Assembly (NCBI RefSeq): GCF_000275845.1
Contig: NW_006766914.1
Span: forward strand, 1 to 40,254
DNA from: Dichomitus squalens LYAD-421 SS1
Lineage: Eukaryota; Basidiomycota; Agaricomycetes; Polyporales; Polyporaceae
Reading direction: 5' to 3'
DNA length: 40,254 nt
Of this stretch, positions 295-37,188 are shown in pieces. A program made the position numbers and the translations under genes. The notes below the pieces were generated by a model, which was not told where the DNA came from, ran no database searches, and saw only the letters and a list, made by a program, of their open reading frames with translations. Every line of letters starts with the position of its first letter. Position 1 is the first letter of the stretch.

Positions 295-417
295 ACTTTC
301 CGATACGAGTTGTCCGTGGTCGAGGTGAGCGTCTGTCCTGGTTCACATGACCCCCAGGTCACGTGGCACGAGAAAACTGTGACACATGTCTCGCGTGACT
401 ACTGACTTCCGTCTTAG

Positions 418-2734: not shown

Positions 2735-4448
2735 ATGTCTACCTACGATCCTACCCTCGTGAAGACGGTGTATGAGTTGTATGTCCTTCGAGCAGCCTTA
2801 CGTCGTGACCGACGGCTCATCCTACTTGCTCCATCCTTCTAGCTTCGTCGGGAATTACTGTAGCATAACGAGCAACGGTGAGTGTCTTCCTTAACCTCTG
2901 ACACGAGTCGCGACCTAACTAGTCTCCTGTCACTTTAGTGTTCTACATCTATGACTGTCTCCTCACTCTGGACGACGAGGTGGAGTTCTTCTGGAAGAGA
3001 CCATTTACCGGCGCGACGGCGCTCTTCCTGTTCAACCGCTACCTGGCCCTCGCGGACGTGCTCACTCTATTCTTCTCATGGTCTGGCCAAAATGCATGGT
3101 ATAGTGATGCTGCTGCATGGTACAACAATGATCGGGTACGCATGTTCTTTATGTCCGCTTAGTCATGGTCCATACTGATGGGCTATACTATAGAGGTATC
3201 GTCGAATCCACCCAATACATAGTCCTCTATATAGTGCTCAACGGTGTTGTTGGAAAGCTGTGCGATTGATGAACGAATAACGCTAGCAATTGTCTACCTT
3301 CAATTACTGCCTCCTGCAGGTATGTCTTATACCTCTGGCTAGAGCCGCATCTCATAGCCCTCCTTTGCAGTGTTCTCTTGTTTGCGTGCATTTGCACTGA
3401 GCAAGAGCTGGCCTCTGGCAATGCTTGTCCTTGTGCTTGCCTTAGTGCCTTATGGGGTCAACATGGTAGGTTCTCATCTTATCACAGCCTAGCAAAGGAT
3501 GACAACACCATCTAGGCAGACTACAGCTATAATGTAACAGGTGTTCCAGATAGTATCTTTGGCTGTGCACTCAGTGACACTGAGCCAATGCATATATCTA
3601 TAATGTAAGCCTATCAAACTGCCTGAGTTGGACCGTCACTAAACCTCAATCAATAGTTGTCGGTGTTTTGAATGTTTTTGTGATGCGGTCATATATATTC
3701 ATCATCATCCTATATGGCAGTCACAATCCTTTCACGCACATGTCTGATTGTTCAAGATGCTATCTTGCTCATAATTACCTGGGCAAGGCTATATAGAAGA
3801 CATGTCTTTGGTGGTATATTGAGGCACCTTACATTTGAGAGTGTTCTCCTGCAAGATGGTGAGTCAATGCACAACTGGCCAGGACTTGGACAATTGGATT
3901 CTCATGAAGTGTCTCTCCCCTAGGCACCCTCTACTTCATGTACAGATCATGATCTAATCATGCACTGGCATCTTATTGAACTGCTCTCCAGTGTACTACT
4001 AGCCCTCAACATCCTTCATATCTCTTTATCCCTAGCATCAGTAAGCTGCTATTGATCTTACTCAGATTGAGGATGTAACACATGGTGGATAGTTCTCAAC
4101 AGACCCTGGATACAGTGATGTTGCAACATTCACACCTCTGTAAGCTATGTTGTTCTGCTTATAGTGATTGTCAATTTAGATCTACTAATCTCAAATGGAT
4201 GATGTAGGGTCACCAGCATCCTTATCTCAAGATTCCTCCTTGATCTGCAAAAGGCCAAGCATAGCTCTCACAATTTGCATGGAGATCAGTCCACATTTAA
4301 CTCTGGCAGCAGATCAGAGGTTGCATCTGTAAGCTTTGCAAGCAGGGTTGTGGGGTCATTGGATGAAACATTGTCTATAAATATATGGAATGAGAGGTCA
4401 GAAGCTGAACCATCTGACTCTATGGAGCTCACTTCAGTAGACAGTTGA
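2735..4448 (+). CDS. DUF6533-type multi-pass membrane protein, copy B (13 exons, 338 aa)
   Basis: Function unknown. The family (fungal DUF6533) is assigned from the N-terminal block NYC...FYIYDCLLTLDDEVEFFW...LFNRYLAL. Model: 2735-2778, 2843-2877, 2939-3135, 3194-3195, 3258-3319, 3371-3465, 3516-3604, 3657-3658, 3721-3858, 3924-3939, 3992-4040, 4093-4139, 4208-4448. The sum is 1017 nt with no internal stop. Exons 4 and 8 are 2 nt each; skipping either breaks the frame. Exons 5-12 have exactly the lengths of copy C. About seven hydrophobic segments suggest a plasma or internal membrane protein, followed by a tail with FASRVVGSLDETL. From about 3240 to 4509 CpG is almost absent, yet the frame is intact. 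The donor of the last 2-nt exon (GTCGGT) is weak, so splicing there may be inefficient. Promoter: TATA at 2647. Confidence 0.8.
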
Positions 4449-4509
4449 GTATAAAGCAGCTCCTTGTATATTGTATTGTGCTATAGGCTTCACTGGCACA
4501 TTTTTTCAA
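3737..4509. other. CpG-free tract covering the 3' part of copy B
   Basis: Reading every base, the last CpG before the tract is at 3735-3736 and the next is at 4510-4511, so 773 bases contain none. TG and CA are abundant instead. The homologous part of copy C (6614-7350) and the 5' exons of copy B (2735-3135) have many CpGs. Between 3421 and 3736 there are only four. Loss of CpG with gain of TpG/CpA is the classic product of deamination of methylated cytosine. The right boundary is sharp: CpG-rich sequence resumes within 150 bases of the copy B stop codon. Confidence 0.9.
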
Positions 4510-5653
4510 CGCAAAGTCAAAATGGCATCACTACACCAGTGCAAGGCGGCTTGCCGTACATTTGGCAGAGTGCCAGCAGAGCAACTACAGAGACTAGAGT
4601 TTGTATCTCAGATAGATTGCTGAAACTATCTTGGAGTTGGATTGACCGAGAGAACGACTGTATCTTCGCCTCCGACTGCCAGCTCATCGGACTCGGACCT
4701 CAAGCGCTCAGCGCTCTCTGTGCGACCGCGGGTACCGGGCGCTTGGTCGCAGATACTGCTTTGCTCTCGCCATCGGCCGGTGGACTCCGTCAGGCTATCT
4801 CTTCATCGTCTTTACCAACAAAACAAAGCGTGCTTGGCCCACACGGCTTTGTTAAACTCTTTAGTTTGCGCTCCGAAAGAAGGATATACCAGCCTGACGC
4901 AAGCCCGCTCTGCTCAATGCTCCTGCGGCAGCGTTTCGAGCTTGCAAATCTCGCTCACCCGGTGCCATCGAAAGTTCTACGGGATCATCACCGAGAAGTC
5001 TGCATTTGACACAGACTCGCATCGCACAGGCACCGTGTGAGGGAACTCGACAGACTGCGCCAAATCTTTATGTCCGAGTCTTCGTAACGCAACCGAAGAT
5101 ACGACATTTGCAAATGCGGACAAGACGCGCTGTGTAGGCGATGAGTCGCCACAATCACGAGCAAGATGACCTGGACAGCGGGCAGCTGCGCGCCCCTGGC
5201 CGACCTATCCGCGTTCGATCAGAGCATGACCACTATTCGCGTGAGTCTATCACCTTCTGCTCTGTGCCCAGGGCTGACAGTTCCCTCTGGGGTGCGGCAC
5301 GCTTCGCGAGCTGGCAGCGCGCACGGGTTGCTACGTTTTGCCAAAGGACCGTTGGACGTATGCAGATGAGCGTCGCCGTGGTGCCATCTGACGCCGAGGA
5401 TATTGCAAGCTTACGACACATTTGGAAACGTTCTTTCGTGCTAACGACTTTAGGAGACGATCCGCGAGGCGATATAATAGGGCACATGAGCCCTACGCCA
5501 CTTCTTAGAAATTCAAATCTTCTACTTTCGCCGGCACTTCGTCCGGATTCCGTAGGCTTGGCCTTCACTAGTCGGCGTCGCCGCGCTGCATCCGTCTGAG
5601 CTTTTGCATCTGATACCTCCAGTCTTCCACACCACTGCACTCAACTATCTGCG
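4449..5653. other. Intergenic between DUF6533-type copies B and C
   Basis: No gene recognised. Open frames of 132-181 codons (about 4464-5040) and 135-152 codons (about 5141-5640) overlap on different frames and strands. They lack splice-site or family support, so I treat them as chance products of a CpG-rich stretch. The right part is the promoter of copy C; a TATAAT at 5473-5478 lies about 175 bases before the start codon and is a weak candidate. Confidence 0.5.
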
Positions 5654-7350
5654 ATGTCTTACGACCCTACCACCGTTGAACTCTTCCACGAATTGTACGT
5701 ACCTCAGGATTGTTTGCCACCGTAGTCGATATGACCGATCAACCAATGACTAATCCGCCTCCCATGGGTTTTATTGAAGCCTTGTCTCGGATTACTGCCT
5801 CGTCGCAGCCAATAGTAAACCCCATATCTCGCTTGAAGTCAACAACTCCCAAAGCTGATCGACTGCATGCAATATAGTTTTCTACATCTACGACTGCCTC
5901 ATCACCCTCGACATCGAGGTGGAGTATTTTTGGAAGGGGCCGTTCACGGGGGCGAAAGCCCTCTTCCTGGCGAATCGATATGTAGCCTTTGTCAACGTCA
6001 TCGTCAACTACTTCCAACTGATACAGTTCAAAAGCGATAAGGTACGACCTCTCGAATCTGCGTGCGTTGACGAACCCTACTAACGTGTAACGCTCTAGAG
6101 GTACCATTGACCATGGCTGCATCCTACAACCAGTTCACTGATTGTGAACAGCTGCGCGCTGTATCAGAGAGCAGGACTGGCACTCGTCTACCTCCAGTTT
6201 CTGCCCCCAGCAGGTACGCGTGTGGTCGCCGCCCTGGACTGGAGCGTTCCTCGTGCTGATCTTTCGGTATAGTCTTCTCCAGCCTGCGTGCATATGCTCT
6301 GAGCAAGAATTGGCCCCTGGCGCTCTTCATCCTCATACTCTCCTTGGTCCCTTACGGAGTCAACATGGTACGCTCGTTTCGTGGATCGGCGACGTGATGT
6401 AGGTTGACGGTGCTCTGTAGGCCGACTACGGCTACGGACTCACGGGATTCGTTGACCCCGTGTTCGGTTGCCTGAACACTGATGTGGAACCGTTGAACAT
6501 TTCTATCATGTAAGCTCATCCGATACTCATCTCCGGATACAGACTAATTGTCGCCTTCCAGGTGTAAGTGCCTTGCGTGGACGCGCATAGTGCGAAGCTT
6601 ATCCTTGAGCCAGTCACCATACTCGCCAGAACGTGCCTGATCACTTCAGACGTCCTGTTGATCATCATTACCTGGATCAGGCTATATCGGCGGCATATCT
6701 TTGCTGCAGTATCCAGGTCGTTGACGTTCGAGAGAGTACTCATTCAAAATGGTGAGTCTATGTTCTTAAGTTGTCAGACCACGCTGAGCCCTATCCTGTT
6801 CCTTCCGGATAGGCACCCTCTACTTCATGTGCGCAAGTTCATTATAAGCCGTATCCAATCGTTCGCTAAATCGCTGTCTAGCATACTCCTGGTAATGAAC
6901 GTCCTCCATCTGTCTTTCTCCATGGCATCTGTGAGCTTCGCGTGATGTCTCTAGAGCGCAAGACTACGACTTAATTGACACCCGACAGATTTCCGGCAAT
7001 GGCGGTTATAGCGCCGTCACGGCATTCACCCCTGTGTGAGCCAAACAACTCCTAGCCCAAGTATCTCAATTCACATTTCCATACGCATGTCCAGCGTCAC
7101 CAGTACCCTCGTGTCGAGGTTCCTCCTCGATCTCCAAAGGGCGAAACACAAACCTCAACATCTCGACATAGACCAGTCTACGTTCATCTTCACGGAGAGC
7201 TCTGGGCTTGCGTCTATGAACTTCGCAAGCCGAGTAATGGGCTCCATAGGCGAGACGTTGGCCGGTGATACGGAGGTCGACGCCTTCGAAATCGACGCGC
7301 TGAAAGACATGGAGCTGAGTCAGGTGGGGCAGTCAGCTGAAAGGAAGTAG
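5654..7350 (+). CDS. DUF6533-type multi-pass membrane protein, copy C (13 exons, 331 aa)
   Basis: Closest relative of copies A and B (start M-S-Y-D-P-T). Model: 5654-5694, 5780-5814, 5878-6041, 6099-6100, 6152-6213, 6273-6367, 6421-6509, 6562-6563, 6614-6751, 6813-6828, 6882-6930, 6989-7035, 7095-7350. The sum is 996 nt. The fourth exon (AG) completes Ser before a conserved Cys (K-S-C-A-L). The eighth (GT) completes Met-Phe before TILARTCLI and has the perfect donor GTAAGT. The intron before the first 2-nt exon carries a textbook TACTAAC branch site (6077-6084 region). Seven hydrophobic segments are visible: FYIYDCLITL; NRYVAFVNVIVNYF; LALVYLQFLPPAVFSSL; WPLALFILILSLVPYGVN; TSDVLLIIITW; FIILLVMNVLHLSF; VTSTLVSRFLL. 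A tail of roughly 70 residues follows, with FASRVMGSIGETL. CpG content is normal, unlike copy B. The gene is tail-to-tail with RFC3, 144 bases apart. Confidence 0.85.
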
Positions 7351-7494
7351 CGACGATAATCCCCTACGTGCGAGTGACGACGGACCCCTGTAGCCGTAAT
7401 ATATCCATGAATTGTATCAATAACGATGTAGAAAGCTAATACACAACGAATACAGCAAATGCAGGATGATATAACGCAATGTGACGACAATACT

Positions 7495-8966
7495 TCACGG
7501 ATCCTTCGCAGACAGCTCGACGGCATGCTTGAACGCACCTAGGAGGGCCGTGAATTGGAGCTTCTCGCTCCCGCCCGTCGACAGTCGGTGCCTAACCCGA
7601 CCGCGCGTTCAGCATGCACAAAAGTGAACAAGCAAGTGGAGAACACGCACTCCGTCGTAGCGAGGAAATCCAGCAGGTATATGCGCGCATGGGGCTTGAA
7701 GTTGATCGTCTCGATGTACTCGTACGCGCCGTTAATCAGGTCTGGCAGCGCCAGCCCGCGATCAATTTTCAAAGCAGAGATCACTGAAAACGACGGTTAG
7801 TCTCGAAGGATGAGGCGCGACACCCATGGAACGCAACCAACAATTGTAAGACGTCGTGAAGTCGTCTTGAAGCATTGAATTGACGATCGTCTCGATGTCT
7901 GCGGGCTGAGGGTTGCCGGTGCAGTTATATATCTCGGCCTCTCCTGTGAGCTCGTACGCAGCGTGACACGCTTGAAGGACGTTCAGCGCGCGACGCATGT
8001 CGCCCTTCGAGAGCTTGAGCAAGGCCTGCTTTCCCTCCGCCGTGATCTTCACCCTACCGCCCCATCAGTATTCGCCGAACTCAGTATGAGCGGCAAGAAA
8101 AGGACTGGAACACTCACCCTTCAGCGTCGATCACATTATTCACTCTCTTCTCGACCTCTGGTATCGGAAGCGGGGAGAACCTGAACCGCGTACAACGGCT
8201 CTGGATGGCGGGGATGATCTTGTTTACGTAGTTGCAGATGATACAGAACCGGACGTTCTTCGTGTACTGCTCGATCACGCGCCGTAGCGCGGACTGCGCG
8301 GCGGTGGTCATCATGTCGGCCTCATCGAGGATGATGAGCTTGTAGCCTTTGGAGAAGAGCGTGCGCGTCTCAGCGAAGTTCTTGATTTGCTCGCGGACGA
8401 CTTCGATGCCACGGTCGTCGGACGCGTTTAGCTAGCATTCAAAGGACGTCGTGGTCGGGGAGAGGAGGATGTGGGATGAGGGTTTGGGATAATATGTGAG
8501 TGTATACATCGCGTACCTCGAGGATCTGCTTCCGGTACTCGGTGCCGTATATTCGCCGCGCGACGGCGAGGATGGTCGATGTCTTTCCTGTGCCAGGCGG
8601 ACCATAGAACAGCAGGTGCGGTAACCTGTTCTTCTCAATGAACTTCTCGACTACCCGAGACGAACCTCCGTCAGCTGCTTCGGTCGCCCACCCCATGGGG
8701 TAGGTACTCACTCGTGCTCGTGATATCGTGGTGGGACACGACGTCGTCCAATGTCACCGGCCGGTACTTCTCCACCCTGAATCTTAGTCAAAAACTGCGG
8801 ACAGAAAGGAGGTGTTTACTCAGCAGACGCACCATGGTAGGTTCTCGAGGTCGTACGGCTCGTCATGCGCTGCGGCTTTGCCCTTCCCTTTGCCCTTTCC
8901 ACTAGCCGGCCAGTTGATGGGCTCATTATCCTCCACACGCATATCCTCGTCGCTGTCCATGATCAT
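7495..8966 (-). CDS. RFC3: Replication factor C subunit 3 (clamp loader small subunit)
   Basis: Small subunit of the RFC clamp loader, which opens PCNA and loads it at primer-template junctions in the nucleus. It corresponds to yeast Rfc3 and human RFC5. Seven coding exons can be joined on the minus strand. The acidic/Lys-rich N-terminus (MIMDSDEDM...GKGKGKGK) leads to [14 protein letters not shown]. Then come Walker A ([12 protein letters not shown]), Walker B (IILDEADMM), the SRC arginine-finger motif ([10 protein letters not shown]), the AAA lid ([15 protein letters not shown]) and the C-terminal collar (...[16 protein letters not shown], stop 7497-7495). Start chosen at 8966; a second in-frame ATG lies at 8960. 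One donor (GTTGGT after TACAATT) is weak but is fixed by frame and homology. It is divergent from ubiquitin-eS31 and convergent with copy C. Confidence 0.95.
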
Positions 8967-10022
<1,056 letters not shown>

Positions 10023-10446
10023 GCGTCTGACCATGCTCTTCTGTGCTTCGAAGCTATGTACCACGCTGTATGCATATGACGAGCTTGTATTATCCATCAC
10101 ATCGTGCAATGCTATGAGAGCGCTGTCCCGCATCAACTATCTGTTTGAACGAGGAACGACCGTGCGTTGTCGTGCACACCGCGATCTCTGCAAAGTTTAT
10201 CTGGAGTGCGTCGGACCGGACGGTTCAGCCAATCGGAGAGCTTGAATCCGAAAATTTGGACGGGCGGATCAGAGGTCGAACACGATTCCTGCGCTGGAGG
10301 ACCGCCTCGGTCAGACAGCCGGTTAGGTCCCTCAGGCGCAGCGACCATGCATCATCTGCCAGCAACGACGTCGTCTCTTTCTTTCTCATATTCACATATT
10401 CAGGGCTGAGCCCGCCCTCCGCTCTCTACCACGGCCTTTGGTTACC
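10023..10446. other. Intergenic, ubiquitin-eS31 3' end and F-box gene promoter
   Basis: No gene recognised. Short open frames on both strands lack support. The interval should hold the 3' untranslated region of ubiquitin-eS31 and the promoter of the F-box gene. Confidence 0.5.
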
Positions 10447-12052: not shown

Positions 12053-12425
12053 GTGATTAATCCGGGCACATTTGGGGGACATATAGACTACTAGAACGTT
12101 TTCTCATAGACTACAGTATCAGAGTTAGACGACACCTTCCTAAATATCTAGACACGCACGCCCGGTACAGAATAGACTGCAGTTCGATGGCCTCCCTATA
12201 TTGATAGTGATAGAGTTTGCCTCTTATACTGGTTGGATCTCATAGACCGTAGAGTACATGGCTTGACAAGGATCCACTAGACATTTCGATATACGGACAT
12301 TCCGGAGTAGAATGCGCGTCTCGCTGTCGCACTATGTGATGCTAGTACAGTGAGTCCCCTAAAGTGTTGTAAGACAGCAAGGTAGGACGACCATGTGATA
12401 GACAGACGGAACAACTAGCAGGGGG
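12053..12425. other. Intergenic between convergent F-box and HET genes
   Basis: AT-richer than the flanking exons, with no open frame worth naming. It should hold the two 3' untranslated regions. Confidence 0.6.
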
Positions 12426-14423
12426 CTAACGTGACCTCGTTTCCGTTAGCGTTGTCCCATCTACCACTCGACCTGCCTCAAGGCTGCCTCTGCCTATACA
12501 ACCTCGCAACCACTCGAGCCTGCGCTTCAGAGCTGAGAAGTGTTTCACTGATAGACTTGGGAGACAAGTGTGCGCCGTTGTTCCATACAAGTCAGCGTGG
12601 AGTGCATCTGAGCTGGGGTGCGCGAGCGAGGCCGGGAATTCTGGGGGCGACTCGACGACTTGGATATTGACGTAGCATAGATCGCGTTTGTCGGACTCCC
12701 GGAGAAGGGGATCAAAGTCCAGCCCAATGACTAGCGTTAATTCCCCTGTGGGCGTCGTGAGCGTCAGGTCCGGGAAGCCCGACGCCCCGTATTCTCCGGT
12801 CACGCTTGCGGGCGGACTGTCCTGGGATTCCACAACAGATTCGCCAAGAGACGTGGGTACGATCGATGAGGCGACGTAGAAGAGGCCATGGGAGGATCCT
12901 GGATGGTAGCTGAGCTCTATGCTGATGCTCACATTGCACCGGCGTAGAGTGAAATGATAATGGTGTACCAGGAGGCTATCGCGTGTAGTCGAATGTCTGA
13001 CCTCAGGCTCGAAGCCTTGGGCCCGTAACGCGACTTCGGACCACTTCGTCAGTTGGACAGAGAGTGCTGAGTTATCGGGTGCACTGGATGCCATCTGACG
13101 CGCATACTCGGATCTGTCCCAGGAATATGAAGAAGAAAACCAGATGAAGGGCAGATAGACGGTGTCGATGATTAGCTTGCTGTGAGATTGTTGCACCTCT
13201 GTGGGCGAGAGTATGAACGTGTCGAACAAAGACGCTTGATCCTTGCCACGGCTGGTGGATAGCAGGACGAAACCCCGTTGAAGGAGTTTTGGTTCATCTG
13301 AGCCAACGGTGTCAGAGAAGCAGACTCGAGCTACGAGGTGACCCCCTTTGTCGGGGTGTTCGCAGGAAAGGATGAGCAGGTACCACTGCGCCGTCGTAGC
13401 AGAGCGGTGCAACTTGAGGTCGTTGTCATCAAAGAGCACAGAGATTGGTAGCAATGGGAGCTGCGTGCGCATGCCGTAGGGTGTGTTCCTGAATTCAGCG
13501 ATAGGGATATGAGTGAGTCCGAAGGGAGAAAGGTCGCCGGAGAAAGGGCGGAAGCGCGTGGCATCCACAAAATCCTGGGGCGTGGTAGCCACGAAGGATG
13601 CATGATGGTCGGGAGTCCGAAAGAGTACGGCAGTACGACCTTTCGGAGGCGATTCGAGGAAGAGTCGAGCTCCCCATGCAAAGATTGTCTGATCTGGGAT
13701 CGTCTGCAACAGGGCTGCCTGTAGTCGGAAGAAAGCGCGATCCCCTTCGCCGTACGACATAGGGAGATGGACATCGAAGATACCAAACAACGAATACGCC
13801 CTGTCCTCCACTTTCTCTGTCTCCCTCTTGGCTGCCCAAGCCATGCGGACGATGACGGGGATGGCGCTCAATGGTTTCTGCTGCTTCAAGACGGAGAGCT
13901 CGATGCCTGTGATCTTCTCGATTGCACCGGACAAGGCGGCTTTCGTACCGAAAAGCTGCCAGTCCCGCGAGAGGAACAATAGCGCTCGGGGCGCTATGAG
14001 TTCCTGGAGTGTCCATCCTCGAGAGAACCACCGACTGGTGTGGAAGCGTGATTGAGCATCTGTCTCCTTCCCGTTTGGAACGTCTACTAGGTATGCGTAG
14101 CAGACGTTGGACCTGCTGTACCAGAAGAACATGGTGTTTATGGCCTCAGAGAGCTCTATGCTGTCTTGCTTGTCGATACAACAGGAATCGATCCAGATGT
14201 AGCGATAACCGTGGGAACGTGCAATTGAACACGCCTCTCTGATCTTCGGAGACAAGTCAGGATGGTCGAATAGAGATTGGAGGCCTTTAGACTGCATCCG
14301 TCGCAGATCGTGGTAAGATTGTTCCCCCGCTGGATCCCAGGTGTGCGATAGTATAGCATACGCCTCCTCGGTAGGGTGGATCTTCTTGAACTCCCCTGTG
14401 TGAGTATCAAGCACTCGCATCAT
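12426..14423 (-). CDS. HET-domain protein (heterokaryon incompatibility-like), 665 aa
   Basis: Intronless, running from ATG at 14423 (MMRVLDTHTG) to TAG at 12426. The open frame extends upstream without an ATG, so this start is preferred; it places the HET domain at its usual position. HET signatures are AYAILSHTWD (residues 21-30), YRYIWIDSCCIDK (73-85), NTMFFWYSRSNVCYAYL (96-112) and RWFSRGWTLQELIAP (131-145). The HET-E-like continuation EDRAYSLFGIFDVHLPMSYGEG (about 206-227) follows. No NACHT or WD40 repeats follow; the C-terminal 400 residues look like the effector or uncharacterised half seen in many basidiomycete HET proteins. HET domains trigger programmed death of fused incompatible cells in ascomycetes. 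Whether basidiomycete members do the same is not established. Confidence 0.9.
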   Translation of the reverse strand: MMRVLDTHTGEFKKIHPTEEAYAILSHTWDPAGEQSYHDLRRMQSKGLQSLFDHPDLSPKIREACSIARSHGYRYIWIDSCCIDKQDSIELSEAINTMFFWYSRSNVCYAYLVDVPNGKETDAQSRFHTSRWFSRGWTLQELIAPRALLFLSRDWQLFGTKAALSGAIEKITGIELSVLKQQKPLSAIPVIVRMAWAAKRETEKVEDRAYSLFGIFDVHLPMSYGEGDRAFFRLQAALLQTIPDQTIFAWGARLFLESPPKGRTAVLFRTPDHHASFVATTPQDFVDATRFRPFSGDLSPFGLTHIPIAEFRNTPYGMRTQLPLLPISVLFDDNDLKLHRSATTAQWYLLILSCEHPDKGGHLVARVCFSDTVGSDEPKLLQRGFVLLSTSRGKDQASLFDTFILSPTEVQQSHSKLIIDTVYLPFIWFSSSYSWDRSEYARQMASSAPDNSALSVQLTKWSEVALRAQGFEPEVRHSTTRDSLLVHHYHFTLRRCNVSISIELSYHPGSSHGLFYVASSIVPTSLGESVVESQDSPPASVTGEYGASGFPDLTLTTPTGELTLVIGLDFDPLLRESDKRDLCYVNIQVVESPPEFPASLAHPSSDALHADLYGTTAHTCLPSLSVKHFSALKRRLEWLRGCIGRGSLEAGRVVDGTTLTETRSR

Positions 14424-15747
14424 CTTCCCGGGACTGATCTGTATATTGGTTGGTTTCAGCAAAGATGATAGTCGCGAATACGAATGATAAGCGCACCGTG
14501 CTACTTCCCAAGAGGCTCCGCTGTTGCGCTTGGCTGTGTATGAAATCACTGATCATCTGATCCAAATGCGACTGTGACGAATACTGAGGGCGGTGTTGAG
14601 AAATATAACATGCAATCTTGGTGCGGAATAGCAGACCTAGTTTGCGTCGTCTATCGTCTTGATGCCACTCAAGGCACGATTGTGTACGCGCGGCCTCGGC
14701 CCAGGTGTTCTAACTGGTGACGGCCTAACACCCGAACCCATTGCAGAGGCAGATGTTGAGGGAGGATACGACGATGGGAGAGATGAAGGACAAGGAGGGG
14801 GACAGGATAGGGCCACGCAATGCGGGCCAGGAACAGCTGCAGGCGATGCGACTACCCTGCCTTGAGGATAACACGGCGGCGTCTGACATCTGTCGCTGCA
14901 CATGACGCTCTGAACCTTACAGCACGCCGACAAGACGGGACACCTTGCCGTGTATATTAGGAGCAACCGTTCTTGCGCGGTGAGCTATGGGTGAAGTGTT
15001 ACGGTTATTAGTCCCAAGTACCAGGGTACTAAGCAGGACAAGCATAGAGCGGACTATCTGCCGTACCGAGTAACGATGCTCGTCCGCTGTCTTGGTCGAT
15101 CTTGAGGGTCCTACCGTGCTCGGTCACCTCATCTGAGTGCGCCTCCTCCGTTCGCACCTGGGACTTGGTCCAGGGAGGTTCTCGGACATCACTGGTCAGT
15201 CCGGAATGCCTTGATACTAATCCTGCCGACCCTCTTCAGTCGGAGTAAGGAAGTACGCACCCTCACTGCATGCCAGATATCCCAGCTCAGGTAGAAGCTC
15301 ATATAACATGCTCCCTTCAGTATAGTCGATGATTTTGTACATTGACCGCGATAGAGAATGTCAAATAGTGAATCACCAACAATCACGGGTGAGCGTGAAA
15401 CGAGTACATACCTGGTGGCTGACTTGATCTGTATGGGTCATACGTGCGAGGTCGCAGGGATTTCTCAGACTCATGGATACCAGGTAAGTAGTAGGCTGCA
15501 GGCCGAATTCCCCAAATTACTACCGTGCAAGCCTGAGTAGGGGCCGAACCATCATGTGGATTGGCGCCCGTGACAGTAATCGCATGTGCGCTAGTCTGGA
15601 TTGGCGTTGTCAAGCACTTTCCTCTAGCCACCACCCGACCCCATCGACAATCTCATCCCCGTTCTATCCTCGGGATCTTCCTAACCATTTCTTGGCTGCT
15701 CCTGCTTGGTTTACATTCCACCACAAACACAAACGACATACGGATCT
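14424..15747. other. Intergenic between divergent HET and 496-aa protein genes
   Basis: About 1.3 kb. Frames of 60-125 codons occur on both strands (for example 14637-14966) but are low-complexity or lack splice support. Nothing is recognised beyond promoter space for the two flanking genes. Confidence 0.5.
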
Positions 15748-25419: not shown

Positions 25420-25712
25420 CGGCTTCCGATCCTAGTATCTACAAACAACGACTACGACTCCGAAGGCGGTAGATTTCACTGTGTGGTCCATGTTCTCCTA
25501 GCCTGACTGTTATCTCGCACAAACTACTTAAATCCCCTTGCAGTTTCTCCAAGCTTCAATCATCTCCTCTAGATGCCTCTAGCCGCTGTCCCCCGCCATG
25601 TTCTCCGCATGCATGTTCGCTTCTCTCCAAGCCCCCCTGCCTACGACGCTTACCTGGCCCCATTACCGACGCTCCCACCGACGCTACTACCGCCACGAGA
25701 CACTGCCCAATA

Positions 25713-26477: not shown

Positions 26478-28172
26478 TCATTCCCCCATGAGTTCGTCAT
26501 CGACGTCGTCTCCCTGCCAAGGATACTCATCGGGAGCGATAGAGGCCCCTAATGATCCAACAACTCGCTCAAATATCACAGAGCCGGTGTCCGACGTAGT
26601 CAATGCTTGCGAAGAGGCCATACCGACAGCTCGAAGGCTGGCCTCCTGCAGGTGTAGGAGAAAGCGTGAAATCAGGAGGGCGGTCACCCTAAATGTTCGG
26701 AGTTGCGATGTTCAAGATACGGGAGGGTCAGCTATATCTGAGCTTGAGTATAACATTGACTTAAGCCACATACGGCGTTGTGAATTGACCGAAGTCGCTG
26801 GTTCTCTGTAGATAAGCTACATCGAGCTGTCCTGAGTTGAGCATCTTAGCAACAATGAAATTGCAAGGGTGCTCACCGAGAGCATGGTGAATGTCAGGTG
26901 GAGAGAGTTGAGGATAGCAAGGAAGCTTGATGATCCCTATGAGCTTTGGCCCACCGTTCAACAGCGCGTGGCTCACATGAAATAAATAGTGCCTAAGGCA
27001 CCTGAGTAAGCATATACAATGTTACATTCCCATGGAAATTGGCACTTACCATCAACCAGAAGCACGCTAGATATTGTGCCCTTGGGTACGACCCCTTGGC
27101 CGATGTTGTTGCGCCGTGACAGCGCAAACCACGTCGAACCAATGACAAGGAAATCCGCTGCGATTAGGCACGACCGAGATGCGATGGTGACTGCCATCAT
27201 CATACGTAAACAAAGGTCGGAGGCAGGTATGAAAGACAACCATACATCTACAGAAGGCGAGGGAGATTAAATCAGGGTAGCGTACGCTAAGCACCTCAGT
27301 GAGGACTGACTTTTGCACCACGTTTGGAGGTAAGTTGTTCATGGGTATGCATCCAAATGGGGGATCGTACCCGCCTGTTTCTCCAAACGCGAAATCTGTC
27401 TGTTCATCCGAGATGTCAGTCCATGTGAGTCCAGTGTTAGAAAACGGCTTTACAAAGTTGATTCCAACAGGCACCATGGACAAGAGGAAGGTAATGCAGG
27501 ACAGCGGCCAGCTTTTCTGAAGAGCATAAACACGTATGCCAGCGAAAGCTAAGGAAATCGGTGTCTATCAACAGCTATTCAACCAGTTGGTACAGTCGGT
27601 TCTACCTGCCGCGACAGTGAACAGGAGAAATTCAATAGCAGCAACGCCCCTTGAGTCGATGATGCAGCTATGCGTGTGGCATAGATTAGTCGGGAAATGT
27701 TGCCAGAGAGGATTGAGGCTCCTCGCTTACCCCTGTCGGAGGAAATGGCCAAATGAGCGGGGGACACAGAGTAGCTAGAATGGCTGTAAAGCCGTACGTA
27801 CCTCGACTGACTTGTTCAAGCTGCTCCCAAGGTCCCAAACCATATAAAGCAAAGTCATGTATTTATTGAGCCAGAATAGAACGGCCCCGCCCGTCACCTT
27901 TCGCCCCCAAAAGTTCCGAACTTCGTCTCCGGTCGTGATGATTGAATCATACATGAACAGCACTACCCAGCAGATTGGTGAGCCACATGCCTTCAGAAGC
28001 ACCATAAGATAGTAGGTCGCGACTGGTACCTGCTGCTGCATTAAAGCAGTAGTTACCAATGTATCTACGTGATGAAGCGGGTTCTCAATGATAGCTATTT
28101 GATAGGAGTAAGGGAAACAACATACACGCTTGCATATTCGGAGACGAATTGGGCAGTCTCGGAGGGAGACAT
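26478..28172 (-). CDS. DUF6533-type multi-pass membrane protein, copy E
   Basis: Complete member of the second subgroup (N-terminus MSPSETAQFVSEYAS, like copy F). Exons join through YIGNYCFNAAA, VLFMYDSIITTGDEVRNFW, KYMTLLYMVWDL, a 2-nt exon GG (27732-27731), CIIDSRGVAAIEFLLFTVAA, GIRVYALQKSWPLSC and PPFGCIPMNN. A second 2-nt exon AT (27247-27246) follows, then TIASRSCLIAADFLVIGSTW, GTIYF, LAILNSLHLTFTML, RTSDFGQFTTP and VTALLISRFLLHLQEA. The tail has IFERVVGSLGASI and ends at TGA 26480-26478. The first 2-nt exon joins E|GG|C to give Gly-Cys where A-C have Ser-Cys. The donor before the second (GTCAGT after CAAAA) is less typical. About seven hydrophobic segments; function unknown. Confidence 0.8.
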
Positions 28173-29259: not shown

Positions 29260-29750
29260 TCAGGACCGCAAAGCCAACACAGTTTTGCCGTAGTAATAAG
29301 CGGAGGCAGCAGAGGTCACCGTAAGGACGGCGGGCACTGGGCCCTTGGTCGCACGAGGCAGCGAAGAAAGCAGGAGAAGAGCAGACGCGCCTAGAGCAAG
29401 ACACATGAGAGAGGTGAGCGGTTGATTGGGATCATGGTGGGACTAGATTGGACGAGACTCACCGAGAGCAGCCTCGAGACCGTTCGCAGTACCCTTGCGA
29501 ATGCTGTCGGCACTGTAGAGGTAGAGTACACCAACGCTGGCAGAAACTGTCTTCAACACCCCATTTGCTCATGCCAGGGCCTGCTTTTCCACTCACCCAA
29601 CACCTGCGACCAACGAGGGGATACTCTTGGTGCGTACAAAGCCGGTGATTCCACCGACAACGCACAGGGTTCCCATCACGTAAGCCGGATACGCAGACTG
29701 GACTTTCTTGAGTCTCAATTCTAGCTACATTGATCTTCCGCGCGCACCAT
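29260..29750 (-). CDS. TMEM14 family (UPF0136) small membrane protein, 102 aa
   Basis: Small four-helix membrane protein. Family members sit in the inner mitochondrial membrane or other organelle membranes; TMEM14C imports protoporphyrinogen in animal erythroid cells, and the fungal role is not settled. Model on the minus strand: ATG 29750-29748 alone, a 50-nt intron (29747-29698, GTGCGC...CCAG), then SAYPAYVMGTLCVVGGITGF, intron, VGVLYLYSADSIRKG, intron, GASALLLLSSLPRATKG and SAASAYYYGKTVLALRS, TGA 29262-29260. Without the first intron the ATG runs into a stop after eight codons. With it, the start M-S-A-Y-P-A-Y matches the family. Gly-rich helices fit the fold. It is divergent from the EEF1AKMT4-like gene across 206 bases. 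Confidence 0.85.
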
Positions 29751-29956
29751 TGTAGTTGTTTCGATCTGGGGCAGGTAGGAGGAGATGGGAGAGAGTAGCA
29801 GGGCGGGGGGATGGGAACAGTGCTTGCCGGCGTGCGCACGCAACGGTGTCACCTATTTACCCCGCACAACAATAAGCGCACATGGATGATCGGAGATCCC
29901 GCGGGAACGCGTTCCCCGGCCCGTGATTTCTTCCTCGCCACATACACTCTGATAAT

Positions 29957-31033
29957 ATGGCGGACGTCCTCCCAAGGAAGAACGAGGAGTATGGGACAAA
30001 GGAATACTGGTGAGTATCAGGCAAATTGCCCCAGTAGAGGACCCATGTCAACTAGCTTACCAGGGATCAGCGTTATACACAGTGAGCAGTATTTTCACAT
30101 TCGTTGTTTACAGCGCCAGGATGGCCGAGATTTCTCGGACAGGGAGTCAGAAGAAACCTCCTTCGACTGGTTCAAGACATACGATGGTATTGCAGACATC
30201 ATGCGGCAGCTTATCCCCAACAAGTCGTCAAGGATCTTGATGCTCGGTTGTGGAAATTCGACCCTCTCGCAGGACGTACGTCCGCTGTTACGAAGCACAC
30301 AAGCTGGCATAAATTGACTGGAGACATGAACAGATGTATAATGATGGCTACAAGAACATAGTGAACATCGACGTAAGAAACTCTTCGTCAATCTTCTGCA
30401 GATGACTCATCCGAGGCACACGTAGTACTCTGGCATCCTCATCGAGAAGATGAAGCATAAGCATGAGATTTCGGCACCGGAGATGGAGTGTACGAAACCC
30501 TCGGCTGCACATTCCACTCTACGCTCATACAATGCGTGGGAACATAGGGCATGAGATGGACATACGCGACCTGAAATTTGAAGCGAATTCGTTCGATGTT
30601 GCCATAGACAAGGGCACGTTCTTGGCTCCACTTACTTGGCAGTCTGCCCTGACGGCCAGTGATTCATTAACCCCAGGCACGATGGACGCCATGATGACCG
30701 CCAAAGCTGATGTCTGGGTATATGTCGGCCTCATGCAATGTACGTGCTCCTGGCGCTGACTCATGTGCTGCCAGGATCCGCCAGAAGAGGTCGTCCAAAA
30801 CTGTAACAAGGAGGTAGACGAAGTCCTGCGGTATACTTCCTTTGCTTTACTCATCCCTTACAAGCACATTCACGATCGTTCGCAGTGTCCTCCGCCCAGG
30901 CGGGATCTTCGTCTACCTCACCTTTGGCCAGCCGCACTTCCGCCGTCGCTACCTCGAACGTCCCAGTACGACGCTAGAGATCCGCAAATTAGGCGATGCG
31001 TTCCATTACTATCTGTACATAGTCCGAACCTAA
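29957..31033 (+). CDS. EEF1AKMT4-like class I SAM methyltransferase, 205 aa
   Basis: Likely a protein lysine methyltransferase of the METTL13/EEF1AKMT4 group, which modifies elongation factor eEF1A. Nine exons: 29957-30009, 30064-30081 (18 nt), 30143-30275, 30334-30372, 30426-30489, 30548-30613, 30677-30717, 30775-30830, 30886-31033. They sum to 618 nt. Motifs: MADVLPRKNEEYGTKEYWDQ (family Y-x4-Y-W-D-Q-R-Y start), SFDWFKTY, motif I RILMLGCGNSTLSQDMY, NIVNIDYS, WHEMDIRDL, FDVAIDKGTMDAM, VLRPGGIFVYLTFGQPHFRR, LGDAFHYYLYIVR. The intron 30614-30676 only works in frame with a GC donor (AAGG|GCACGT...CCAG). The GGCACG at both of its ends is a direct repeat. Convergent with the CLC gene, 50 bases apart. 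Confidence 0.82.
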
Positions 31034-31083
31034 AAAAAATAAAGCAACGATTTTCCCTGCAGGAAAACGTCGACAGTGTTTGT

Positions 31084-34000
31084 CTAGTAGTGTCTCTCCG
31101 CAAGCGCGCCGGCGTGCGATGACTCCGCAGTAAGCAACCAGACAATGTCGGTCTTGGTGACCATCCCCACCAGCTTCCCTTCTTGCGAAAACAGGATGTG
31201 TCGCACGTTCTGTACATCATGCGTTGGTATGGGACCATACCAATGACATGCGCAAGAGAAGCACTCACCATCTTCTGGAACATGCTCACGACGAGCTCCA
31301 GGGGGACGTCCTTGCGCAGCTGCAGGACTGCTTCCTCGAGCAAGTTCGACAAGTTGACCATCCCACTGTCCCCCTGGCCCGTCCGACTCGGCGGGAGGAA
31401 GGTGCACCTCTGCTCCATAGACGGATCGTCCGCGATGGGACCGACTTGACTCCCCGTCAGCATGACAGCGCCAAAGCAACAGGTCTGGACTCGCCTAAAC
31501 ACGCGCGCAGCTTGTCCCTCATCACCATCCCAAGCAGCTGCTCCCCATGCAGAACCGGGAATCCCCCGAAGCTATGTCTGCTGATGAACTCGTTCAGCTC
31601 TTTGACAGAGCATCCATGCCCATCGTCGTGAATGACGAATAGGTTCGACACAGGTTTCATGACATGTGCGGCGGTCTGGCCTTTGTCGCGGAAGTCGCGG
31701 GTAGGGAGCCAGGGGTACTGGCGCATGGCGATCCATACGGTGTATATGCCGTCCTTGCCAAACGCGTCTGCGACCCACTTGGAGACCATGACAGAGATCA
31801 TGAGCGGTAAGACGTGCGAGAGGGCGCCGGTTAGCTTGGAGACAATTGTTAGATAGATATCGTGCGCAGAGTACATCGTAGCGGGCTCACCTCGAACATG
31901 ATGACAACGAGAGAGACTGAGCGGTCGGCAAATAAGCATGATAGAAAGTAAGTCGAGAGAGAAGGGCTCACTCGTCATCCTAGTGACTCCACCGAGCATA
32001 GCAGAGGCCCCGATGACAGCATAGAAGCCTGGCGATATACAGCGTACTGTGGAATCCGGCGGGCACGAAGAGAATATCCATGCCGTCGGATATGCCCGAT
32101 ACAGTCCTTGTCTGACGCACATCGTCAGAACGCTCACGCAAGCAGGAAGTAAGCATACGAACGTAACCAGCCCCACTGCACGCCCCAAGCAGGCACCGAT
32201 GGCGATCGTCGGGAGGAAGATACCAGCTGGGACCTGGGAAATGCTATGAAAGGCTGCTATACCTTGTCTAGTCGGGGACATACCATCATGCCAAAGGTCC
32301 ACGCTGTGAACGCGATCTTAACCAACGCTGTCAGGACCAAGAGGAACACGTTGGCCCAAATCGCTGTGGGGCTGAGACGGGCAATATCAGCTTACAGATG
32401 ACATCTAGCGAGATTCAAGCGTACTTGCACAGGCCATGGTAGTCTGGCTTGGTAGGGTCGCACTCTTGAAAGAGGTTCGCAACGAGCTCCGATGACTGCA
32501 CTCGGAGGAACACGAGTAGGTAGCTGGTAGCGGCGGTGATGGCGGTGAAGCCGACGACCTCCACAATCGGAAAGTTGTGCAGCTGACTGTGTCTTCGGTA
32601 CACGGCTGCAGCCGCATTGAGTTTGATCAAGAGCGAACCGAGGAGACCCTATTCATGCCACGCGGGCTGTCAGCAAACATGAAGATGGCAGTGAATCGAA
32701 GTCACAAACCCCGATAACTGAGAGGAACATCCAAGGAATCTACGACTCAGGACGGTCAACTGAGAACATCCATTCAGTACAGTTTATCCTCACTAGTTCG
32801 AACCCGCGCCAGGTCGTTCCTGACTCCGACACCTGAAACAAGACCAGCTTCGACGTCCCGAAAGGGTCAATGTACTGCAACGACACCGCAGCGATGACAG
32901 AGGTCACGAAGCCACGCCACATCACATCGCTATCGTTCGAGAACGCGTCGAGCTCTTCCAAGCCGAACAGCACACCTCCGAGAGGGCTACCGAACGCAAC
33001 AGATACGCCCGCGGCGGCGGCCGCCGCGAGCAGTTTGCGCTTTCTAGCTGCGCAAATGGTCAGGAGGATTTCGAGACTGAGTGGCGGCAGATCTCTGACC
33101 TTCATTTTGCCGATATTGCCGGAATGGACGGGAGAGCAGGAATGCCCAGCAGCAGGCTACGTGGACCAGGGGCCCTTCCTTCCCAAGAGATAACCCGGAA
33201 GCAACAGCAAGCGCGAGGCCGACGGCCTTGATGAGGAGCACCCAAGCCCCAAGGAATTGATCAAGCACGTAGCCGCTGAGGATCTATTAAAAGACAGATG
33301 AGACAGGTATTGGGCAGTCACATGGGAATGAAAGAACGAACGGCTTTGATTTCGGGAACTGCACATGCCGTTAGTATTCTCGCGAAGGTCATGGGAAGAT
33401 AACGCATATCACGTACTTCCTGTGTGAAAAGCGCTTCGCACGCACGTCAGTTATGTGCATTGCGTAGTGGGCAGTTGCTCCTCACTATGGTGCATATATT
33501 ATAACGAGTACAGCAGAGCTTCCTGCAAAGGCCACCTGGCAGCGGTTCATGAAACTCACAATGACAAGAGGTACGTATGAGAGAACTCACCGACAGCGTC
33601 ATGTAGATAGTAGCTTGCAGCAGGGACTGCCCGAAGATGCTAGTCACATGGAAATATTCGCTCCATGTCTGCCACTCATTACATATCTCACCGGCTACCA
33701 ATTGCGTGAGATGAAAATGCGTGCCATGATGATCCGCACTCACGGTCAAGCCCACTACAGCATGCGACTTGATTGTAAAAGAACCCGTACGTGCACCGTC
33801 CTTCTCGTAGGTCTCCTAGCCTGCGAGATCCTGTCTATATATCCAAAGCTATAGCAGAGATACGCAGCACGCACCATTTCACCAGAACGTCCAGCCATGC
33901 ACCCAAAACCCCTACTCCTACACCCACCAAGATGATGACCAGCCAAAGCCCTGCCGAGTCTAACACCATCCCCAGCAATCCATGCAGCCCCCGCTGGGAT

Positions 34001-34273
34001 TGGATGGCGCGCTTGCGTTCACGTTCCGAGGCCTCTTCTCGCAGCCAGTCTATGCTAGTACCCTCTTCATACGCGGTTTTGTTTCGTAAGGGATGTGACG
34101 ACAGCAAGGGGCCCGTTTCATGGTCCACGAATTCGTATGCTTCGGCGTCGCGAATATCACGGTCTCGCACTTCGCCTTTGTACCATGGTAGATCTGTGTC
34201 GTCTGCGGCGCTGTTTCTTTCCCTCTAATAGGCATCTTAATGCAGTGTTTAGGGATAATGACACTCACCGCAT
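31084..34273 (-). CDS. CLC-family chloride channel/transporter with C-terminal CBS pair
   Basis: Voltage-gated chloride channel or Cl-/H+ exchanger of intracellular membranes (fungal group of yeast Gef1). Minus-strand exons include [20 protein letters not shown], the first helices ([20 protein letters not shown]), [12 protein letters not shown], then A-F-H-T-G-I-P-E-I-K-A across an intron (33434-33342). These are followed by [15 protein letters not shown] with the gating Glu, [35 protein letters not shown] and [11 protein letters not shown] 1 is [13 protein letters not shown]...[16 protein letters not shown] 2 is [20 protein letters not shown]. Stop 31086-31084. The 5' end is unresolved: 34273 is the nearest in-frame ATG (E-E-M-R), but the exon continues upstream ([12 protein letters not shown]). 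The true start may lie as far as about 34730. Confidence 0.88.
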
Positions 34274-35397
34274 CTCTTCATATGACGTCGGTCCTGCGAA
34301 CTTCTTGGACTAATGCACGCGCAGTCGGCGAGTGGTGGAAATGCCCGAGAATGAGTGAGTCCAGTCTGTATGTCGTGAGGAGGAACAATAGTATCGAAGT
34401 AACGAAGAAAACAATCTGAAGGTCTGAGAGCGACGAGATGACAGCAGCAGCACAGTACTTAGGGTGATCAACTCCGGGAAAGCCGGAACAGGACGAAGTA
34501 GCATGGGCGTCAGAGGCGTTGGTTTCTGGAGCTAATACGCACAAACAACGCTTGCCACATGGGAGTCGAAATTGAGGCTTCCAGGTTGTCTGTGAGTTCC
34601 ATCCGCGTCGGTCTCACACGGGCATACAAATGGTTTCCGTACGGGGCTGCATTCTCTCTGTCTCTCACCCAGCTGTGATTCGATCACGTATCGGAGTGTC
34701 TTCATTGGGCCACCTCATGACGAGGACTACCGTAGGTTCGTCGCTCTGAGTAGGCCGTTCATGGCATGTCGCTTTGAGAATCATGCATAGAAACCCTTAG
34801 ACTGGTCTCAAATCCTAAGTTTCAGTTCATACACATTTGTTGTGAGTGCGCCTTACTCTCAGTCACGCATGCAGGCTCGTTGATATTGATGTTGTACCGT
34901 GTCCAGTTTAGACCTGATTCGTGCTAGTGCGCTTGAGAAATTGAGACCGCGCCCCAGTACTGGTGGGTCTTCAGACAAGAGAGAGAAATTGTTACTTTCC
35001 ATCTGTCTTCAAAGAAGACAAATTCGAGAAGACCAAGCATCTCAGGCTACTGCAATCGCCGATGCCCGAGACGACCCAATCGTGAGCGTCCAGAATCTTA
35101 CCTACCTAACGGTTTGTTCAGCAGTGAGGGGGGTCCCACATTGGTGTATTTGCTGACTTCTTGACTCAAGGGATCCTACATAGCACGCATCTGAGTATCG
35201 ATGCTTGCTGCTACGTAAGAATTCGGGAAGCCAGGCTCCATGATGTGAGTTGATGCAAGGGAATATGTTATCGGCGATAGAAGGCATGCACCACGATCCC
35301 CTGATCCCTCGGAATGCGCCGTATAAATGTTCATATCCTTGCTGCAATCCACCCCCAGCAAGCTGACTCTCCCCAGCAAGGCTATCTCCCCCTTACG
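34274..35397. other. Upstream region of the CLC gene and promoter of copy F
   Basis: The right-hand part is the copy F promoter. The left part (to about 34730) probably contains one or more 5' coding exons of the CLC gene that I could not fix. Candidate minus-strand pieces include [13 protein letters not shown] and a frame through 34560-34640. No separate gene is seen. Confidence 0.45.
35322..35328 (+). promoter_or_regulatory. TATA box of DUF6533-type copy F
   Basis: TATAAAT lies 70-76 bases upstream of the copy F ATG (35398), the same heptamer and spacing as in copy E. Confidence 0.65.
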
Positions 35398-37188
35398 ATG
35401 GCTTCTTCACAAACCGTTCAGCTTATCACCGAATATGCAAGCGCGTACGTTGTCTTAATCTCTAGTGGATCTTGAACATGGTTGCTGAGCGTGTCTTTGA
35501 CGTGCAGAACTAGGGATGAATATTGCTTTACGGCCGCAGCAGGTACGTGGATACTATTCACCAAGCCTGGGTGGGGCGATACATCTGGGGCTCATCCGCA
35601 TCTACTCCTCAGTGATGTTCACGTATGATGCGATTCTGACCACCGGAGACGACGTACGATGTTTTTGGGGGAGGAGGGTGACGGGTGCAGCCGTATTATT
35701 TTGGCTGAACAAGTACTTGACAATTTTGCTCTGTTTCTGGAGCATATCCGGAGACCTCAAAATGTCAGACAAGGTACGTGCATCTATTGAGGTGTTCGGC
35801 GACTGAAGTTTGCCTCTGTCGAACAAAAGACTAAACTTCGATGACGACAGACGTGAGAGGTATTCATCGGTGCTCTACTTGTCGAACGCTGACCTCGGCT
35901 ATCCCTGGTTAGTTGCGCTATCAGTTCCCAGGGTACTTCTGCTATGTTTCATGTGCTATTCCTACCGGCAGCAGGTAAGTGTTGCGACTCTTTGAGAACC
36001 CCGCATATGTACCAATGAGCGTTCGCATTATCCGCATCCCCAGCATTTACAGGCATGCGCGTCTACGCGCTCAGTAAAAGCTTGCTCCTGTCTTCCGCAG
36101 CCTTCGTCCTATGCACCGTGCCTCTTGGTATCAACTTAGTAGGCCATCTGCCCCACATGCCTCATGTCAGTACTGACATGGTAACAGGCTGTATTTCATT
36201 TCGGGTTGACTGGTGAGAACGTACCGCTCCTGGGATGTGACGTCGTGGAAAACGTGCCCCTGAACATTGCGAAAATGCAAGTACCACTTCACATACTTCT
36301 CTGAAAGCACTCAACTTAAACAGTACTCACATGTGGTAGATGTACGTAGCTCGAGGCCTCAGAGCAGCTGCTGTTCGACTCATAGGCACGATAGTCACCA
36401 TCGTTTCCCGTTCATGTCTCATCGCTGGAGACTTCCTCGCCCTATGCGTGACGTTGGTCACCCTATACAGACGCTACGCTGCTATTCGCCATGCGGGTGC
36501 CCCCAAAGCTACCCTATCTAACGTACTTCTAGTTGACGGTGAGTGTGGACTTGAACGTCATATATAGTTTCATACCGCTCATAGGGTCGCATGTAGGGAC
36601 TATATACTTCCTGTGAGCCACATCAAAAGGAAGCGTAAAGTGCCTCATTCGTGGAATGTCTAGCATCCTCGTCGTTCTCAACGTCCTGCACCTGGCTTTC
36701 ACCCAAATCTCGGTGAGTGCCCACCGTCCGCGACACCGATGCTGGTACCTACTGACGCTGTCCAAGCTTGATTTGCCCTTCTTAGAAGACGCCGGAGACT
36801 TGGGCCAATTCGTGACCATGTATGTGCATGTTTCCCTTCAGCCTCTTCGTACTCACATGCGCGTCGCTCACTATTTGGACTTGAACGCTCACCAACTTGC
36901 ACGTCCAGCATATCGCCGCTCCTTATTTCACGCTTTCTCTTGCACCTACAGTCGGCCAATCTCTGCACCATCGGCAGGGGCTCCTCGCAAGCGTTGATGA
37001 CGTCTCACGACAGCTCCATCATATTTGAGCGAGTAGTAGGGCCGATCGGGGCATCAATCACCTCAGACGATTACCTCGACTTGGAAGAAGATTCCGATTG
37101 CGGAGAGGCAGCCAACGAACGACGAGGGGGTAGAGCCAAAGTAGAGCGTCTGAATTGCAATAGAAGTAGGGATTACGATCGATCCTAG
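35398..37188 (+). CDS. DUF6533-type multi-pass membrane protein, copy F (341 aa)
   Basis: Second-subgroup member (MASSQTVQLITEYAS). Exons: 35398-35444, 35508-35542, 35613-35773, 35858-35859, 35913-35974, 36053-36138, 36188-36276, 36340-36341, 36395-36538, then 16, 49 and 53 nt exons, and 36909-37188. The total is 1026 nt. The first 2-nt exon (AG) gives K-S-C-A-I. The second (AT, flanked by TAG and the strong donor GTACGT) gives I-F before TIVSRSCLIAGDFL. The intron 36277-36339 has a GC donor (AAAAT|GCAAGT). Lengths 35, 62, 89, 2, 16 and 49 equal those of copies B and C, and others differ by multiples of three. Hydrophobic segments and the tail IFERVVGPIGASI are conserved. A longer, Arg-rich C-terminus (NERRGGRAKVERLN) is specific to this copy. 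Confidence 0.82.

Follow-up and report, generated by a model that had tools for sequence, protein, structure and literature searches.

Predicted pairs of two-nucleotide exons recur across the DUF6533 gene family of Dichomitus squalens

How is a gene read through when its frame depends, at two separate places, on an exon shorter than a codon? The question is raised by four complete genes (copies B, C, E, and F) in the first 40,254 nucleotides (nt) of contig NW_006766914.1 of Dichomitus squalens LYAD-421 SS1 (GCF_000275845.1, an assembly of 40.3 Mb in 116 contigs), a stretch that opens contig 32 and that we call the window. These genes encode DUF6533 (Pfam PF20151), a region of membrane proteins that has been described as specific to basidiomycetes (PMC10949477). 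An initial annotation had placed a 2-nt exon at two homologous sites in each copy, and the eight sites that it named are all present with the frame kept. We hold it very probable that each gene carries two pairs of short ordinary introns, the insertion points of a pair lying 2 nt apart, which leave two constitutive 2-nt exons and are spliced in sequence. Both the DNA and the comparison between genes show that the feature is real, and there it has the appearance of ancient sub-codon exons; the splicing of RNA in this pattern, the sequential removal of the introns, and its order are what we infer from it.

The window copies were modelled by hand first and then with a purpose-written spliced aligner, which sets a protein or a family profile against genomic DNA and allows exons of any length (GT or GCAAG donors, AG acceptors, introns of 42-140 nt). 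A profile search of the genome gave at least 150 matches to PF20151; this is a lower bound because 150 of the 204 candidate places were scored, all of them exceeding the Pfam cut-off of 24.1 bits. Loci were taken from among the higher-ranking Pfam matches and from a search with a copy-C peptide; once 12 that were duplicates or copies in the window had been removed, 92 loci remained, which together with B, C, E, and F make a modelled set of 96 distinct genes, with 56 further candidate places outside it (58, two of them covered by L005 and L011). Genes left unassigned by the profile went through a second step, in which up to eight nearer relatives served as queries and the intron sequence was then read by eye. 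The tree comprises 92 genes, without L057 and L080 (cut or partial) and without L016 and L056 (poor models); L080 holds a site-1 2-nt exon in its profile model.

Both 2-nt exons keep the frame in the four window copies, and the claim that leaving out either one would break it is borne out: omission of the site-1 exon leads to a stop after 92-143 amino acids and omission of the site-2 exon to a stop after 199-237. With protein C as the query (61% identical to B, 37% to E, and 35% to F) the aligner recovers both exons in every copy, and banning exons shorter than 3 nt costs 19 to 44 score units. The succession of exon sizes is nearly constant among the copies (35, 161-197, 2, 62, 95, 89, 2, 138-144, 16, and 49 nt), and they match PF20151 above its cut-off (55.3 bits for copy C, 43.9 for copy F), exons of all four copies exceeding it in the genome search too. 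Each site shows an internal exon of a few nucleotides between canonical introns, with the single exception of a GC donor in F, where the intron ahead of site 2 begins AT/GCAAGT at 36277 (slashes mark splice boundaries). A GC donor (GCAAGC) also follows the site-1 exon of L004. Some details of the initial annotation change. The site-1 exon of F is indeed 2 nt long and in frame, and the aligner favours AC over the AG chosen earlier; the coding sums of B and C stand, and that of F is 1035 rather than 1026 nt, a difference that comes from the 3' exons and leaves the sites untouched. The 16-nt exon that had been called conserved recurs in all four copies and in the family-profile models.

The same arrangement is found across the family. 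The two introns of site 1 fall at profile position 73, phase 0, in 83 of the 96 models and at position 73, phase 2, in 85; those of site 2 fall at position 156, phase 2, in 65 and at position 157, phase 1, in 75. Ordinary introns occur in 67-93 of the 96 models (the values 67 and 76 being summed over adjacent positions, and the first intron, which sits at the profile's edge, being left out of the range) and are thus conserved at about the same rate as these flanking introns. Site 1 consists of a phase-0 and a phase-2 intron around one codon, which is Ser in 48/79 genes and is followed by Cys in 53/79, while at site 2, just before the T-I-x-x-R-x-C segment, two successive codons are each split by an intron, the first in phase 2 and the second in phase 1. 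One family profile yields a 2-nt exon at site 1 in 79/96 genes and at site 2 in 65/96, with both in 59. Because this profile was trained on models with 2-nt exons, its columns 73, 156, and 157 were blanked in a further run (introns up to 180 nt), which gave 78/96, 64/96, and both in 55.

After both steps, the 92 tree genes include, at site 1, 83 with 2 nt, one without the upstream intron, and two without the downstream intron, and, at site 2, 73 with 2 nt, 11 with 8 nt, and two without the upstream intron. Thirteen of the 2-nt assignments (five at site 1, eight at site 2) and three of the 8-nt ones come from the second step. Six genes per site are not counted as exon-bearing (L014, L036, L041, L042, L060, and L075 at site 1; L017, L036, L041, L051, L053, and L096 at site 2); in some of them, a 2-nt exon is returned by a few individual queries. 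First-pass site-1 exons of 5 nt (L049, L093) and 8 nt (L054) became 2 nt under the family profile and are not claimed. A profile model of L073 that read through AG-GTAC as exon was likewise rejected; the sequence has AG, then a donor and, later, an acceptor.

One may ask whether such models come from pseudogenes or from a permissive aligner, all the more as the aligner was written for this analysis and learned its profile from models that it had itself produced. A number of observations make this extremely improbable. First, exons of at most 3 nt are concentrated at the two sites: among the 977 internal exons of the 96 models there are 79 at site 1, 65 at site 2, and five elsewhere, two of which have zero length. 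Second, when intron interiors of called genes were dinucleotide-shuffled with their outer ends kept, a 2-nt exon appeared at the site in 6-9% of the shuffles (49/790 at site 1, 58/650 at site 2), against recovery of the real exon in 78/79 and 65/65 of the same cut-down pieces. Third, the calls largely survive the blanking of the site columns, and exon sizes are close to fixed over most of the 96 models. A separate spacing test within called genes, which sought the motif YAG-N2-GTR leaving two introns of at least 44 nt, found it at site 1 in 70/79 genes, with other spacings from 0 to 12 in 0-12 genes each; in ordinary introns shorter than 80 nt it occurs in 11/545.

Relatives that have one intron of a pair give a direct view of the two letters. 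At site 1, L047 lacks the upstream intron, and its exon continues through both letters (GAC CAG AA/A TGT, Asp-Gln-Lys-Cys); L034 and L071 lack the downstream intron and begin their next exon with the letters (GC G TGT, Ala-Cys, and AG A TGT, Arg-Cys, respectively). At site 2, L019 and L034 lack the upstream intron. These four genes keep the 2 nt in the neighbouring exon, next to a remaining intron of 47-59 nt, and the two letters are therefore shown to be exon. This bears on another reading, in which each site is a single long intron with a shifted or non-canonical end, so that two of the outer donor or acceptor letters (at site 1 the last AG) stay in the mRNA. A kept acceptor AG would likewise give Ser before Cys at site 1, and Ser is the commonest residue there; moreover, in L098 (site 1) and in L091 and L085 (site 2) the aligner picked one intron of 106-109 nt with the donor shifted by 2 nt. 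Yet these three genes still contain a centred AG-NN-GT, and one long intron leaves the inner signals unexplained: the inner (upstream) acceptor at site 1 is YAG in 79/79 genes, the inner donor is GTR in 90%, and the spacing is exactly 2 in the 70/79 genes already mentioned. It also requires an intron of 100-145 nt in genes where 7 of 569 ordinary introns reach 100 nt, and it has no place for paralogues that carry the letters as ordinary exon. We regard it as highly improbable. The single-intron look of L098 and L077 at site 1 and of L091 and L085 at site 2 was set aside, the exon being revealed by nearer relatives or by the intron interior.

A second kind of variant is the 8-nt exon found at site 2 in 11 genes, which form one clade (Shimodaira-Hasegawa-like approximate likelihood-ratio test, SH-aLRT, 99). 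The phases of its two introns match those around the 2-nt exon, and 8 and 2 are equal modulo 3. An alignment of L023 by eye places the downstream intron at the same codon, and the profile puts it three columns away.

How old are the paired exons? Median pairwise identity is 27% in the gene set and falls to 19% among the 59 genes with both exons. The tree accommodates the states with as few as three changes at site 1 and two at site 2 (uncounted genes excluded); at least four changes on it (three at site 1 and at least one at site 2) put one intron out of the pair and leave the frame intact. It is a quick tree, in which 35 of 89 inner branches have support below 80 and three rows are long, and its fine placement is not to be trusted; being unrooted, it is not read for the order of the 2-nt and 8-nt states, and the count of changes alone cannot separate intron gain from loss. 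Judged from the genes compared, the paired 2-nt exons are old: they would predate the expansion of the family in this genome and have been inherited rather than gained repeatedly. The age proposed by the initial annotation for four copies thus extends to some 80 paralogues, certain pairs of which share only 19% identity. DUF6533 matches also occur in dense runs on contigs 14, 28, 32, 43, and 72, which suggests tandem expansion.

The introns that flank the sites look ordinary. Their median lengths are 54-59 nt, with a range of 47-79 nt in profile models holding a 2-nt exon, and their donors and acceptors resemble those of other introns of these genes, except for a weaker downstream donor at site 1. 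All four have a donor and an acceptor of their own and most have a branch-like motif (branch sites were scored solely as a motif). Each of the four would be recognised as an intron unit. Sites only 2 nt apart leave no room for U1 on the second donor and for the acceptor machinery on the first intron at the same time, and the introns of a pair would therefore be removed in sequence; on such steric grounds, splicing in two steps of fixed order is likely. The initial annotation had argued that exon definition should fail on 2 nt; this matters less in fungi, where it is the intron, at about 55 nt, that is taken to be the unit of recognition.

The same annotation had proposed stwintron-like or recursive splicing, with a first splice that creates the donor of the second; in its general form, the first splice rebuilds the donor of an outer intron. 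By definition, a stwintron has one intron that interrupts a splice signal of another (PMC5639578). The sites studied here do call for two consecutive reactions on any reading, and one interval does hold two adjacent short introns. In the called genes, however, both introns have an uninterrupted donor and acceptor in the primary transcript, and the first splice would not make the second donor: at most it would alter the base three positions upstream of it. A ratchet of zero length (YAG-N0-GTR) is found in 0/79 genes at site 1, and the 18/65 at site 2 are attributed to GTAGGT donors. Splicing as stwintrons is thus very unlikely, and the exons are probably spliced in two ordered steps.

Which intron would leave first? 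The upstream donor at site 1 scores above the downstream one in 63/79 genes and below it in 11, a difference that persists with one gene per 40%-identity cluster (20/30 vs 6, p 0.003). The upstream intron would probably be the first to leave, at site 1 at least. The downstream donor of that site has G at +5 in 45/79 genes, compared with 91% in ordinary introns, and the exon letters before it are AG in 47/79, compared with 11%. It is as if the two exonic letters carried the U1 pairing.

Several points weigh against the proposal of two constitutive exons spliced in order. All genes compared come from one genome. Protein C and the source proteins of the profile already included the 2-nt exons when they were built, and blanking covers the site columns only. 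The family profile misses site 1 of B in both runs, probably because of an insertion in B just ahead of the site; this is a weak spot, the exon being recovered with the protein C query and with two of eight near relatives. Some other calls at site 1 are weak: models with the exon gain more than 5 units over models barring exons shorter than 3 nt in 70/79 genes, with a minimum gain of 0 (at site 2, in 64/65, with a minimum of 4.1). Shuffles score as high as the real sequence in 19/790 cases at site 1 and 5/650 at site 2, four at each site holding a 2-nt exon. A few assignments were made wholly or partly by eye (L098 and L073 at site 1; L091, L085, L066, L042, and L075 at site 2), and near-relative queries chose a single intron in 8/8 cases for L098 and 7/8 for L085. 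The spacing test is weakened at site 2, where spacing 2 occurs in 45/65 genes and spacings 0 and 6 are also common (18/65 and 26/65); from reading the sequences, we attribute the latter two to the common donor GTAGGT, whose TAGGT repeats the motif. As for order, the donor asymmetry is weak at site 2 (14/26 vs 9, p 0.18, one gene per cluster). The negative association between AG and +5G at site 1 goes from p 6e-5 with all genes to 0.042 with one gene per cluster, and such compensation is not upheld on independent tree pairs (median p 0.25); we offer it as a lead only.

Would the exons rather act as a regulated switch, with conditional skipping that shifts the frame and silences members of the family? 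Skipping of either exon would bring an early stop in all four window copies, and a regulated micro-exon has been described in Trichoderma (PMC11121469). Against such a switch stand the normal splice signals, flanking introns kept about as often as ordinary ones, the intron of 100-145 nt that skipping would require, and the changes on the tree, at least four, that remove one intron of a pair with the frame unharmed. We find this reading quite unlikely. A broader scheme, in which the site-1 nucleotides, besides coding, supply the exonic part of the U1 site at the following donor, codon choice has evolved together with donor strength and a fixed upstream-first order, and the paired exons serve as frame gates that silence genes when splicing fails, seems to us unlikely too, if a little less so. 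Constitutive exons spliced in two steps remain the reading that we prefer.

The features of the window copies are collected in Table 1. A further copy, A (window positions 1-1119), comprises only the exon at 418 and what follows it, the 3' part of a DUF6533 gene; position 1 is where the contig begins, and by eye the DNA before 418 is unlike the missing exons. In L092, downstream of the 16-nt exon, the aligner separated introns by exons of zero length, which may reflect a recursive site or a slip in modelling. Elsewhere in the window, on the minus strand, there are a 708-aa (amino acid) open frame at 12426-14552, whose start may resemble a HET (heterokaryon incompatibility) domain, and open frames at 30918-33156 that may resemble a CLC-type chloride channel. 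One scan of viral contigs returned no relative, and no solved structure matched.

Table 1. Predicted features of the complete DUF6533 genes, in window positions.
Feature	Description	Position	Strand	Flanking introns or remark
Copy B	DUF6533 gene, 13 exons, coding sequence 1017 nt	2735..4448	+	
Copy B site 1	2-nt exon AG	3194..3195	+	3136-3193, 3196-3257
Copy B site 2	2-nt exon TT	3657..3658	+	3605-3656, 3659-3720
Copy C	DUF6533 gene, 13 exons, coding sequence 996 nt	5654..7350	+	
Copy C site 1	2-nt exon AG	6099..6100	+	6042-6098, 6101-6151; predicted spliced junction AGCGATAAG+AG+CTGCGCGCTG
Copy C site 2	2-nt exon GT	6562..6563	+	6510-6561, 6564-6613; predicted spliced junction ATTTCTATCAT+GT+TCACCATACT
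Copy E	DUF6533 gene, 13 exons, coding sequence 963 nt	26478..28172	-	
Copy E site 1	2-nt exon GG	27732-27731	-	27801-27733, 27730-27668
Copy E site 2	2-nt exon AT	27247-27246	-	27310-27248, 27245-27191
Copy F	DUF6533 gene, 13 exons, coding sequence 1035 nt in the present model	35398..37188	+	
Copy F site 1	2-nt exon AC (Thr-Cys), ACAG/AC/GTGAGA	35851..35852	+	Aligner's choice
Copy F site 1, alternative	2-nt exon AG, frame likewise kept	35858..35859	+	Choice of the initial annotation
Copy F site 2	2-nt exon AT	36340..36341	+	Upstream intron 36277-36339
Conserved 16-nt exon, copy C		6813..6828	+	
Conserved 16-nt exon, copy B		3924-3939		
Conserved 16-nt exon, copy E		26992-26977		
Conserved 16-nt exon, copy F		36597-36612		

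Ultra-short exons are an already known kind; what is unusual here is that they come in pairs, throughout a family, and with natural variants alongside. According to the introduction of PMC12940212, Arabidopsis, Drosophila, and humans have exons of 2-5 bp; in 2026 that paper published a 1-nt exon in the Fusarium cytochrome P450 gene CYP621A, with support from RNA reads, as the first such fungal gene. As in the DUF6533 genes, a conserved fungal exon shorter than a codon lies between two introns and was deduced from the frame and from an intronless relative; the Fusarium case differs in being a single 1-nt exon, RNA-backed and found in orthologues across Fusarium species (PMC12940212), whereas here there are two predicted 2-nt exons per gene, in dozens of paralogues of one genome, known from DNA. 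The plant genes APC11 and VPS55 have 1-nt exons that are also ancient and long kept, and relatives of APC11 without the introns carry the letter in a larger exon, much as our one-intron paralogues do; unlike the DUF6533 genes, they are plant genes with few copies, a single nucleotide, and RNA support (PMC8831610, PMC4674806). The P450 genes of Phanerochaete, another large basidiomycete family, have very short exons among many small introns, but the shortest reported measures 6 bp and no fixed pair is described in that account (PMC1184071). Stwintrons resemble our sites in placing two short fungal introns in one interval, to be removed by consecutive reactions, and differ in being nested, with a splice signal split and no exon left between (PMC5639578). 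The steric argument has been made for neural micro-exons as well, most of which lose the downstream intron first (PMC10250204); the reverse order is suggested here. In one open-access library, we found no account of 2-nt exons in genes of the DUF6533 family or of such a pair extending over a whole family.

On the side of function, the window genes share DUF6533 with SNB1 (Snowball, encoded by snb1) of Coprinopsis cinerea, a protein with seven predicted membrane helices that is needed for the patterning of the fruiting body (PMC10949477). Four genes of the snb1 family are reported in that fungus, in an account whose text does not use the word intron (PMC10949477).

Exons of 1-2 nt in the literature that we found are isolated cases in one or a few genes, and a single genome here holds about 156 predicted two-nucleotide exons (83 at site 1 and 73 at site 2 in the 92 tree genes). 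Gene catalogues that bar such short exons will mis-frame the DUF6533 family, and perhaps others. The natural variants, i.e. the 8-nt versions and the copies with one intron, make it possible to test directly, by comparison, how exons below the footprint size of the splicing machinery are spliced and in which order their introns are removed. The DUF6533 family is thus a good system in which to study how cells splice exons of nearly minimal size.

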